Positions 54,533-59,695 of a DNA stretch of 64,000 nucleotides are shown here, piece after piece. Each line of letters begins with the position of its first letter. Position 1 is the stretch's first letter. A program made the translations under genes and the position numbers. The DNA comes from an uncultured Saprospiraceae bacterium. GTDB lineage: Bacteria > Bacteroidota > Bacteroidia > Chitinophagales > Saprospiraceae. The notes under the pieces are model-generated. The model searched no databases. It worked only from the letters and a program-made list of their open reading frames with translations, and was not told the DNA's origin. The stretch spans positions 1 through 64,000 of the forward strand of contig CALKJD010000094.1 of NCBI GenBank assembly GCA_937995755.1. The letters are read 5' to 3'.

Positions 54533-55204
54533 TTAATCTTCTAAAGAGTAGTAGATGTCAAGTTTTGGATGTACGCTGGAGTTCGTATTGTCGCTAGATC
54601 CGAATAGCATAACTCTTTTAGTTTCTTCAGTCTCAAGTTTCAGAACGCAACCGAAATTATTGTCTGAATCTAAGATCATGTCTTTAAATAAATCTGTAAC
54701 ATCGATGTTTAAATAATCTTGAATTTCATTTTCTGATTCCGCTAAAATAACTTGATCAATTTCGCTTGATGCAGGTTGATTATTCCAAGTGACTTGATCT
54801 TCTTCCCATGAAGATGTTAATCTTTGTAGAACACATGAATTAGAGCCATCATCTGAAAAATGTGAACCGTTTGAAGGTGAATCGTATGAATATAGTGATA
54901 ATTGGATACTATCAATAATTGCATTCTGCGGTAATACTGTGAAATCAAATTTTAATAAAGCTCGTACTACTAATGCCTGTCCGCTATTGGTTGACGCGAT
55001 TGCAGTAAGGTCAGGGTGAGTTCCTAAGTTTCTGTCAGGTTCATAGTCGTAAATAAAAGCATCCATTCCTTCAGTAGCGCCAGGTCTTAATGATTCGGTG
55101 AATTGAGTGTATGTAGGTTCTGAGGATGTGATTACATCTTCCTTACATCCAAATAAGCAAAAAATAAACCCTGTAAGAAAAATGGCAATTATCGATGTTT
55201 TCAT
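54533..55204 (-). CDS. DNRLRE-domain lipoprotein
   Basis: Lipoprotein of 223 residues (signal TSIIAIFLTGFIFCLFGCKED). The mature protein is one DNRLRE domain: EGMDAFIYDYEPDRNLGTHPDL, LLKFDFTVLPQNAIIDSIQLSLYSYDSP (in parts), WEEDQVTWNNQP and the C-terminal HPKLDIYY, a surface beta-sandwich of about 160 residues found in filamentous adhesins and wall-associated proteins. It separates kdsC from ubiA-maf, with more than 300 bases of non-coding DNA on each side, which suggests insertion of an accessory gene. Confidence 0.82.
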   Translation of the reverse strand: MKTSIIAIFLTGFIFCLFGCKEDVITSSEPTYTQFTESLRPGATEGMDAFIYDYEPDRNLGTHPDLTAIASTNSGQALVVRALLKFDFTVLPQNAIIDSIQLSLYSYDSPSNGSHFSDDGSNSCVLQRLTSSWEEDQVTWNNQPASSEIDQVILAESENEIQDYLNIDVTDLFKDMILDSDNNFGCVLKLETEETKRVMLFGSSDNTNSSVHPKLDIYYSLED

Positions 55205-57082: not shown

Positions 57083-59695
57083 ATGGAAGAAAGTATAAAG
57101 CCAGAGAAAAAATATAAATTCAAAGAATTGAAAGTCTACTCATCCACTGAGTGGCTAGCAGATAATAAGAAGAAGTATAGACAGGTGTTTGATCGCCAGA
57201 GTGTTAGCTATATCTATGCGGAGTTATCTTTCTATAATAAAGATTTTGACGAAGAAGTTTGGGAAGTAGATGTCAATTTTAAATGCTTTCAACTCAAGGG
57301 TAAGAAAAGAGAAATATGCTCACTTAAATTCAATAGGAAAGTAAGTAAGTATGATAATGTAGTATTCATAAGAGAAGGCTGGGGAAACAAGCGTGGAGGC
57401 GTTTTTTGGAAGAAGGGCACGTACCTATGGGAAGCCTATATAGAAGGAGAGAAAGTGGGGTTTAAGTATTTCTATGTTGAGGATAGCGGTAATTTGTTGC
57501 TCAATAAAGACACTCAGTACATGGAGCTGAGCAAATTCAGGCTATATGAAGGACAATATGATGATACGGCATTAGAAGAACGCAATTACCTTAAATCCTT
57601 CTCTGCGGAGGAATCGCGCTACGTCTATGCTGAAATCCAATTGCTTAATAAGTATTCTAAAAACTGGCATTGTGAGACTTTTGTGAAGTTTTATAATGAA
57701 GCTCGTGAACTCAAAGGTCAAATCGCAAGATTGCAAGAAGTTAAAATAGAGGATGAGATCATTCATATCAATGCAGGCTGGGGATCTAATGTGAAAGGTT
57801 CTTGGCGTCCGGGTAACTATACGGTGGAACTGATATTTATGGATAAGTTAGTAGGTGTTTATCCATTTACCGTTGGAGAAGACTTTGAAGAGGGCGTTTC
57901 AGCAATACATACACCAAATTCGGATCAACCCATCGTATTGGGTGATGATCAATTAAGTGATGAGACATTCGAAGAGGTCTTAGCCAAACTCGATAATTTG
58001 ATTGGTCTCACCGAAATCAAGAGTAAAGTGAGAGATCATGCGAGTTATATTAACTTCATGAAGCTTAGAAAAGATAAAGGTTTTGAAGAGAAGGATAGTA
58101 TCAATATACATTCTGTATTTACTGGAAATCCTGGTACTGGTAAGACGACTGTAGCTCAGATGATGGGTAAGCTGTATAAGAAAATGGGGCTATTATCTAA
58201 AGGACATGTAGTAGAGGCAGATAGAGTAGATCTTGTGGGTGAGTATATTGGACAGACCGCACCAAAGGTAAAAGCTGTAATAGAGAAGGCTAGAGGTGGA
58301 GTGCTATTTATAGACGAAGCATATTCATTAGCGAGGGCCAACGATGATAGTAAGGATTTTGGAAGAGAAGTGGTCGAAATATTGGTCAAAGAAATGAGCA
58401 ATGGCCCAGGAGATATGGCAGTAATAGTAGCTGGATATCCTAAAGAGATGAAGTATTTTATTGATTCTAATCCTGGATTAAGATCACGGTTTAAGCATTT
58501 TTTCAAATTCAAAGATTACACTCCAAAGGAATTGATAGAAATCGCTTTGGTAGCCGCAAAAGCTAAAGAAGTAGAGTTAGACAGTAAGTCTTATCACTTA
58601 CTTGATGAAATAATAATTGATGCTTATAGAAATCGTGATCGTAGTTTTGGTAATGCAAGGTTCGTTTATGACCTTGTAGATCAAGCTAAAATTAATATGG
58701 GATTACGCCTTATGGCAAGAGCCAATCCTGAAAAACTATCGGTGAAGGAGCTTTCTCTCATTAAGCACAAAGACGTGTCACAGATTCAAATTAAGGATCA
58801 TAAAGTGTTACCTAATCTACCTGTAGATGAGAAGTTATTGATTTTGGCATTAGCAGAGTTAGATAGTTTAATCGGTATCGATAACATTAAGTTACAGATC
58901 AAAGAATTGGTAGGTATTGTTAGATATTACAAGGAAACAGGAAAGAATGTAATTGCAAATTTCTCTTTACACTCTGTTTTCGTTGGTAATCCTGGCACTG
59001 GTAAGACTACAGTGGCTCGAATCTTAACCAAGATATATAAAGCGCTCGGAATATTGGAGCGTGGACATATGGTAGAGACCGATCGTCAAGGGTTGGTCGC
59101 TGGATTTGTAGGTCAGACAGCAATCAAGACTGCCGAACGTATAGATGAAGCTATGGGAGGAGTACTCTTTATAGACGAGGCTTATGCGCTCACGAGTATG
59201 GGTGGAATGCAAGGAGATTATGGCAATGAAGCTATACAGACGATGCTCAAGCGGATGGAAGATCATCGAGGAGAGTTTTTCATATTCGTAGCTGGATACC
59301 CTGATAATATGGATAAGTTCTTGAAGGCAAATCCTGGTCTTAATAGTAGATTTGATAAGATCTTGAAGTTCGAAGATTATAATGCGGCACAGTTAGCTGA
59401 TATCAGTACCAAAATGTTTGAAGATGATGGGTATAACATCACTGCCAAAGCCAAAGATTATCTTAGAGAGTATTTCGATAAGTTAGTGTTGTATAAAGAT
59501 AAGTACTTCGGTAATGCAAGGACGGTCCGTAAAATCGTATTGGAAGTAATCAAGAATCAGAATCTAAGAATATCTCAGATAGAGGTGTCAGAGCGTAAAC
59601 GTGGCTCTGTAAATAAGATCTCATTTGAAGATGTGACTACAGTTGAAGTAATGATGACCGAGCAGACTTGGGAGAAGAAGGGAATAAGTTTTTAA
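57083..59695 (+). CDS. Tandem CbbX/SpoVK-type AAA+ ATPase with duplicated N-terminal domain
   Basis: Cytosolic protein of about 870 residues (ATG 57083; a GTG four codons earlier is possible). Residues about 10-270 contain two copies of an unnamed beta-rich module of 120 residues, each ending in GWG-x-N...G-x-W...PGNYTVELIF/KGTYLWEAYI-type strands and an acidic YVED/VGED. Then come two full AAA+ domains of the CbbX class: Walker A GNPGTGKTTVAQM (near 347) and GNPGTGKTTVARI (near 634), Walker B GGVLFIDEAYSLA and GGVLFIDEAYALT, and Arg fingers in NPGLRSRF and NPGLNSRF. CbbX remodels Rubisco and EccA serves type VII secretion, but neither system is nearby. Role unknown; it stands alone. Confidence 0.9.
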   Translation: MEESIKPEKKYKFKELKVYSSTEWLADNKKKYRQVFDRQSVSYIYAELSFYNKDFDEEVWEVDVNFKCFQLKGKKREICSLKFNRKVSKYDNVVFIREGWGNKRGGVFWKKGTYLWEAYIEGEKVGFKYFYVEDSGNLLLNKDTQYMELSKFRLYEGQYDDTALEERNYLKSFSAEESRYVYAEIQLLNKYSKNWHCETFVKFYNEARELKGQIARLQEVKIEDEIIHINAGWGSNVKGSWRPGNYTVELIFMDKLVGVYPFTVGEDFEEGVSAIHTPNSDQPIVLGDDQLSDETFEEVLAKLDNLIGLTEIKSKVRDHASYINFMKLRKDKGFEEKDSINIHSVFTGNPGTGKTTVAQMMGKLYKKMGLLSKGHVVEADRVDLVGEYIGQTAPKVKAVIEKARGGVLFIDEAYSLARANDDSKDFGREVVEILVKEMSNGPGDMAVIVAGYPKEMKYFIDSNPGLRSRFKHFFKFKDYTPKELIEIALVAAKAKEVELDSKSYHLLDEIIIDAYRNRDRSFGNARFVYDLVDQAKINMGLRLMARANPEKLSVKELSLIKHKDVSQIQIKDHKVLPNLPVDEKLLILALAELDSLIGIDNIKLQIKELVGIVRYYKETGKNVIANFSLHSVFVGNPGTGKTTVARILTKIYKALGILERGHMVETDRQGLVAGFVGQTAIKTAERIDEAMGGVLFIDEAYALTSMGGMQGDYGNEAIQTMLKRMEDHRGEFFIFVAGYPDNMDKFLKANPGLNSRFDKILKFEDYNAAQLADISTKMFEDDGYNITAKAKDYLREYFDKLVLYKDKYFGNARTVRKIVLEVIKNQNLRISQIEVSERKRGSVNKISFEDVTTVEVMMTEQTWEKKGISF

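Follow-up and report, generated by a model that had tools for sequence, protein, structure and literature searches.

A two-ring AAA+ protein of the SpoVK-CbbX-EccA clade with paired Ig-like modules and a conserved C-terminal tripeptide in Saprospiraceae

The locus and the layout of the encoded protein

The window analyzed here is a stretch of 64,000 nucleotides belonging to a 72 kb contig (CALKJD010000094.1) of the 4.4 Mb draft genome of an uncultured Saprospiraceae bacterium (GCA_937995755.1). An intact open reading frame was found on the forward strand at 57083-59695, the position given in the initial annotation, and the encoded chain is arranged from the N- to the C-terminus as module 1, module 2, a short linker, a first AAA+ ring (D1), a second ring (D2) and a tail. 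The features are as follows:

57083..59695, + strand: whole gene, 870 aa from ATG
57071, + strand: alternative GTG start, which would yield 874 aa
57107..57490, + strand: Ig-like module 1 (profile match; hhalign to module 2; model pLDDT 90.6)
57515..57889, + strand: Ig-like module 2 (profile match; hhalign; structure model)
57890..57970, + strand: probably flexible linker joining module 2 to ring 1 (pLDDT <50 at residues 288-292)
57980..58774, + strand: AAA+ ring 1 (D1) and lid (TIGR02881, 273 bits, cut-off 422.95; Walker A/B, GY and NPG.SR motifs)
58124..58147, + strand: D1 Walker A, GNPGTGKT, invariant across 37 aligned homologues
58853..59584, + strand: AAA+ ring 2 (D2) and lid (TIGR02881, 253.6 bits; motifs)
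58985..59008, + strand: D2 Walker A, GNPGTGKT, invariant across 37 aligned homologues
59636..59692, + strand: C-terminal tail, probably disordered (pLDDT <50 at residues 859-870)
59684..59692, + strand: tail tripeptide I-S-F, the window variant of the family I-G-F ([IVLM][GS][FY] within the last 50 residues in 138/138 unique two-ring proteins)

The equivalent ATG start is used by the same-genus orthologue (L032), comparison with which indicated strong purifying selection (dN 0.039, dS saturated); a same-genus relative is 94% identical. No transmembrane segment was detected (highest 19-residue hydropathy 1.33). The full-length structure model (pLDDT 83.1, pTM 0.42) confirmed the order of the domains, their relative arrangement in it not being reliable.

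The N-terminal region is predicted to be a tandem of Ig-like modules

A duplicated, beta-rich N-terminal module had been proposed by the initial annotation, and a self-comparison of the repeat had been set beforehand as the test on which this proposal could fail. The repeat was found: modules 1 and 2 were aligned by hhalign, with profiles from 39 homologues, at a probability of 99.0% (E 5.2e-18, 122 columns, 24% identity), and the two copies of the window protein itself scored 94 in a Smith-Waterman alignment, while none of 1000 shuffles exceeded 65. The pattern of glycines and aromatic residues seen in the window protein (GWG...G.W..G.Y) proved to be conserved, since the motif E..N...GWG..PG.W..G.Y...F was shared throughout an alignment of 42 modules from all the contexts found, in which G95 and W103 never varied. 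Modelled by AlphaFold (mean pLDDT 90.6, pTM 0.85), the module pair was nearly all beta, and it is, on this model, a tandem of Ig/FnIII-like sandwiches.

The fold searches were less specific. RbmA was the top match in Foldseek with an E of 3.5e-9, yet with a TM of only 0.32 over both domains. In a second fold comparison many unrelated Ig domains tied with Z values of 10 to 11, including the Ig domains of GH2 enzymes, AlkC and the carbohydrate-binding domain of Wzt (6o14; Z 10.5, rmsd 2.4, 107 aligned), and no partner-specific family stood out. The comparisons fix the class of the fold and not the ligand. The module profile gave nothing convincing against Pfam, NCBIfam, PADLOC or PDB sequences, which agrees with its description as a module of unknown family. 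The weak Pfam matches (DUF3859, Y_Y_Y and DUF6941) touched only a few members of the module, and the Wzt family was absent from them; DUF3859 was found in 1/60 genomes of the order, too few to judge its relation to the module.

The module accompanies rings in several combinations, with one or two modules and one, two or three rings, and is also found alone, in some cases with a start resembling a signal peptide (read by eye). These varied combinations and solo copies are as expected of a binding domain. The products of four genes (L189:8526-9362, L190:9475-10311, L191:37-873 and L193:8113-10098) carry the Ig-like module twice, lack an ATPase and are probably secreted.

Both rings fall within the SpoVK-CbbX-EccA clade

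Two AAA plus AAA_lid_6 units were found by profile search. Each carries a Walker A, a Walker B, a sensor-1 GY and an invariant FGNAR-type stretch. The GY signature of the clade (G451 Y452 and G738 Y739) was invariant in 37 homologues, as was its second arginine finger, located in the FGNAR-type stretch (R526 and R813); we take R526 and R813 to be the sensor-2 arginines. N463 and N750 were also invariant. The position four residues further on is an arginine only in some D1 rings (lysine in most) and is variable in D2, and the arginine at +6 (R469 and R756) was invariant in the 37 homologues. Judging by these motifs, both rings look ATPase-competent.

The best-scoring NCBIfam model for each ring was SpoVK TIGR02881 (273.2 and 253.6 bits), below its cut-off of 422.95; the 512.6 bits of the whole protein are the two rings summed. 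CbbX TIGR02880 (241.6 and 196.4 bits per ring, 428.1 for the whole protein, cut-off 459.25) and EccA TIGR03922 (216.2 and 218.8 bits, whole protein 423.6, cut-off 466.65) scored lower, each ring again remaining below the cut-off. Hence the two CbbX/SpoVK-type domains of the initial annotation stand as two complete rings, but not as CbbX proper. That the protein might serve as a Rubisco activase like CbbX, the chains of which are the closest solved sequences (PDB 3zuh and 3syk), is extremely improbable in view of these scores, of the separate branch occupied by the rings in the trees described below and of the window itself, in which no Rubisco gene was seen when the translated ORFs were read by eye. 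Type VII secretion and sporulation genes were likewise not seen there, in agreement with the initial annotation.

Elsewhere in the window genome SpoVK-type domains were detected in two places only, with 26.9 and 22.4 bits, and none of them was strong. The order also has double-AAA proteins of another kind (L065:2838-4946 and L066:5112-7085), in which the N-terminal region is different and the first ring has diverged.

A tripeptide is conserved in the C-terminal tail

The follow-up analysis added a feature absent from the initial annotation, a conserved C-terminal tripeptide. The tail that follows D2 is modelled with low confidence, and in most members it ends in a basic patch with the tripeptide. 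In a set of proteins longer than 840 aa (and shorter than 950 aa in one of two sets) and unique in their last 200 residues, all 138 two-ring proteins had [IVLM]-[GS]-[FY] within the last 50 residues: IGF in 110, LGF in 13, VGF and MGF in 5 each, IGY and ISF in 2 each and ISY in 1. The strict form [IVL]GF was present in 128/138 tails, against 96/2940 shuffled tails and 8/2363 stretches of 50 residues elsewhere; as the 138 proteins are related, these figures show conservation and not independent gain. Single-ring forms carry the tripeptide too (L186 IGF, L268 LGF, L291 VGF), and it was missing from the last 25 residues of the three-ring tails inspected by eye. Among 15 outgroup proteins of the clade one, from Lachnospira eligens, had a VIGF end. 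This plasmid-borne member of Lachnospira (Eubacterium) eligens (L217:1301-3328) may represent a separate, independent instance of the motif.

The tripeptide raises the possibility of a protease feeder, a dedicated unfoldase for regulated degradation whose tail would dock ClpP or a similar peptidase. According to the portion of PMC8745299 drawn on here, a tripeptide of the type (L/I/V)-G-(F/L) docks ClpP in the Clp ATPases, and the tail of the two-ring proteins follows the last ring, on the face that would be expected to meet a peptidase. Nevertheless, the motif of the Clp ATPases is placed on a protruding loop and not on a C-terminal tail, and the part of the clade-defining paper used here (PMC10659427) reports no peptidase association in the clade. 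Furthermore, the window protein and its genus-mate read ISF instead of IGF, which weakens the case for ClpP docking by the window protein. We therefore regard this explanation as unlikely. The wider form of the proposal, a double-ring unfoldase of the CbbX clade in which the Ig-like arms would choose the clients and the C-terminal I-G-F tail would dock ClpP or another barrel partner, is rather improbable as well. If true, docking to a protease or complex would link a clade reported without peptidase association to regulated proteolysis.

Distribution and descent

The two-module profile matched 127/248 genomes of the order; among the genomes listed from the same family it matched 57 of 62, and it was missing from all three listed for genus g58. 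The single-module profile matched 78/345 genomes of the class and 45/395 of the phylum. No match of the module was obtained by profile search in plasmid and phage collections, and PADLOC gave no hit for the module, only AAA-domain hits for the rings. On these grounds, together with the near-constant presence in the family, a mobile or defence origin was rejected, and the defence role that the initial annotation had left among its options was not borne out.

Among 39 loci fetched from the class and phylum matches, 33 had two modules and two rings, 2 had two modules and one ring, 1 had two modules only and the remaining 3 had one module with two or three rings. Chains combining TPRs, module and rings, mostly three rings, amounted to 33 loci (3 plus 30 more), the TPRs having been assigned by Pfam in one and by eye in the rest. 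In the three-ring relatives L197, L198 and L200 the second or third rings are without recognisable Walker or arginine-finger motifs and are perhaps regulatory dead rings.

The more careful of two trees, of 75 ring domains and with 8 plasmid-collection proteins and two local double-AAA proteins as outgroups, grouped the D1 of two-ring proteins with the D1 of three-ring proteins (99/99) and D2 with D2 (100/99). Both groups were apart from CbbX, SpoVK and EccA, the deep forks being left open. In a faster tree of 178 domains all 67 D1 came together (0.965), as did all 64 D2 with two single-ring proteins (0.995); the clade with all these rings also included six outgroup domains. Judged by sequence, the rings are a separate lineage within the SpoVK-CbbX-EccA clade, and the sharing of D1 and D2 between the two-ring form and the TPR-module-three-ring form indicates that this lineage is old. 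The single-ring forms presumably descend from two-ring forms by loss of D1.

Gene neighbourhoods of the two-ring and three-ring forms

The neighbourhoods of two-ring genes were surveyed on a set of 112 unique loci, almost all belonging to the order, that was left of 123 targets after removal of those identical over residues 31-150; ORFs shorter than 60 aa and overlapped ORFs were excluded. No conserved co-transcribed partner was found, in keeping with the stand-alone gene of the initial annotation. The downstream gene was codirectional and within 60 bp in 22/100 loci, and no family occurred more than twice among them. On the opposite strand beside the two-ring genes there is a recurrent old housekeeping block (neighbours in 24-27/112 loci). 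In the window a gene with a CBM96/disaggregatase repeat, probably a lipoprotein gene (54533-55204, - strand), interrupts this otherwise conserved block to the left of the two-ring gene.

A divergent Hsp100/Clp-like gene was located within four genes of the two-ring gene in 29/112 loci. In some Saprospiraceae the gene divergent to the two-ring gene (L035:3950-7237 and its relatives) codes for such an AAA+ protein, of about 1,090 aa and with an unknown N-terminal region. The profile of this N-terminal region matched 13/60 relatives, all of them with the two-ring protein. This association would fit a general stress disaggregase analogous to Hsp100. Nevertheless, the gene is missing from the window genome and from most of those relatives, so it is not an obligate partner; the housekeeping neighbours are about equally frequent, the window genome has two further matches to Clp-like proteins, and the members of the clade are described as narrow-acting. 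A disaggregase is accordingly very unlikely.

In 4 loci of other families the two-ring gene is immediately followed by a glycosyltransferase-2 gene (gaps 5, 37, 11 and -4), and in 3 loci it is immediately preceded by a gene for an NDP-sugar epimerase (gaps 1, 1 and 74); these calls were made by Pfam on one of each and by sequence cluster on the others, and each link is limited to one or two families.

The neighbourhoods of the three-ring relatives were different. In 18/33 loci an exporter pair, ABC ATPase and PF16949 permease, is encoded downstream of the TPR-module-three-ring gene, and in 22/33 a divergent DUF2807 lipoprotein gene lies beside it, the models used for counting having been built from members of the same 33 loci. 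Operons of the three-ring AAA+, ABC ATPase and PF16949 permease, most with the divergent DUF2807 gene, are seen in L303, L308, L312, L313, L316, L302, L306, L203, L204 and L315. Three divergent TPR-module-AAA+ members (3/33) follow a SiaC cassette, which wherever it was tested also had SpoIIE or DUF6272 parts. In the SiaABC pathway SiaC acts as the phospho-switch (PMC7647112, in the part drawn on here). In these loci (L293:6941-11369, L294:5393-9845 and L295:6679-10244) SiaC-type genes and a gene for a conserved small protein of 77-85 aa lie directly upstream of the TPR-module-AAA+ gene, the gene of the small protein being 2-9 bp before it. The label "stand-alone" of the initial annotation hence applies to the two-ring lineage and not to the three-ring relatives, among which exporter-type (18/33) or SiaC-type (3/33) operons occur.

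Neither association was seen for the two-ring form in the genomes covered. The ABC exporter was not supported as its partner, with the PF16949 permease found in 0/60 relatives, an empty result of a kind that carries little weight, and with none in the two-ring neighbourhoods (one DUF2807-like gene lies near L274). SiaC was rejected in the 60 relatives, since it was present in 4/60, none of which has this protein.

Proposed mode of action

The combined results make it fairly probable that the protein is a two-ring (type II) AAA+ remodeller of the cytosol with an Ig-like recognition arm, threading of a client and docking of a partner by the tail. On the D1 face the paired Ig-like modules would bind the client, or an adaptor, to which the protein is dedicated; the two rings, assembled presumably as a hexamer, would pull a segment of the client through, and the conserved tripeptide, hanging from D2 at the exit face, would dock the partner. 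Members of the clade are, in the sections of PMC10659427 used here, dedicated chaperones with narrow targets, substrate recruitment being presumed to fall to their varied N-terminal domains. By this precedent the Ig pair would recognise the client and the rings would pull, and the role in substrate recognition that the initial annotation had assigned to the N-terminal modules is plausible.

The best lead on the candidate client is a process of the cell envelope, and it comes from the exporter and DUF2807 genes of the three-ring relatives and from the glycosyltransferase-2 and epimerase couplings. As envelope-related genes recur around the relatives, an outcome of activation, as with SpoVK, is placed somewhat ahead of degradation as with Clp. 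A rival reading built on this lead is an envelope chaperone that, like SpoVK on MurG, would activate or assemble a single cytosolic enzyme of glycans or of the envelope, or a single exporter; the tail would dock that complex, with no degradation. The couplings named above favour it, as do the precedents of SpoVK with MurG and of EccA1 with mycolic acid enzymes (PMC10659427, same sections) and the resemblance of the module fold to, among others, the Wzt domain. Against it, the Wzt match is tied with those of many unrelated Ig domains, the exporter is absent from the search of 60 relatives and the window gene has no conserved neighbour of such a kind. We consider it possible, if somewhat doubtful.

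The remodeller proposed here is near-universal in a large environmental family of bacteria, the Saprospiraceae, and spread through the phylum. Since the known members of the clade each serve one client or context, identifying this client could bring to light a process that is essential or linked to the envelope, and the tail motif offers a direct handle for a binding test.

Comparison with known systems

No description of an Ig-module two-ring family was found in the open-access literature searched. The clade-defining paper (PMC10659427) names, in the part used here, fusions to TPR, beta-helix, beta-prism and helicase domains, and its main text contains no mention of "Ig-like", "bacteroid" or "tandem". 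SpoVK, the chaperone of MurG in the sporulation of Bacillota, belongs to the same AAA+ clade, but it has a single ring and a short N-terminal domain (PMC10659427, in part), in place of the two Ig modules, two rings and motif tail found here. EccA, the ATPase of type VII secretion, shares an N-terminal interaction region and the AAA+ of the clade. TPRs are reported for EccA (same part of PMC10659427) and are also present in the three-ring relatives; the EccA fetched (L212) nevertheless has one ring and adjacent type VII genes, and an Ig module is not reported there. The usual IGF-type tripeptide of the family resembles the (L/I/V)-G-(F/L) one of ClpX, ClpA and ClpC (PMC8745299, in part), but these belong to another AAA+ branch and bear it on the protruding loop. 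CbbX, the activase of red-type Rubisco, shares the AAA+ family and the lid, whereas the two CbbX fetched are single-ring proteins encoded beside Rubisco and without the IGF tail. Finally, two-ring AAA+ proteins of the p97/Cdc48 type consist of an N-domain, D1 and D2. The window protein has this layout in common with them, but the sequence relation is only distant, and here an Ig-like arm is combined with rings of the SpoVK-CbbX-EccA clade.
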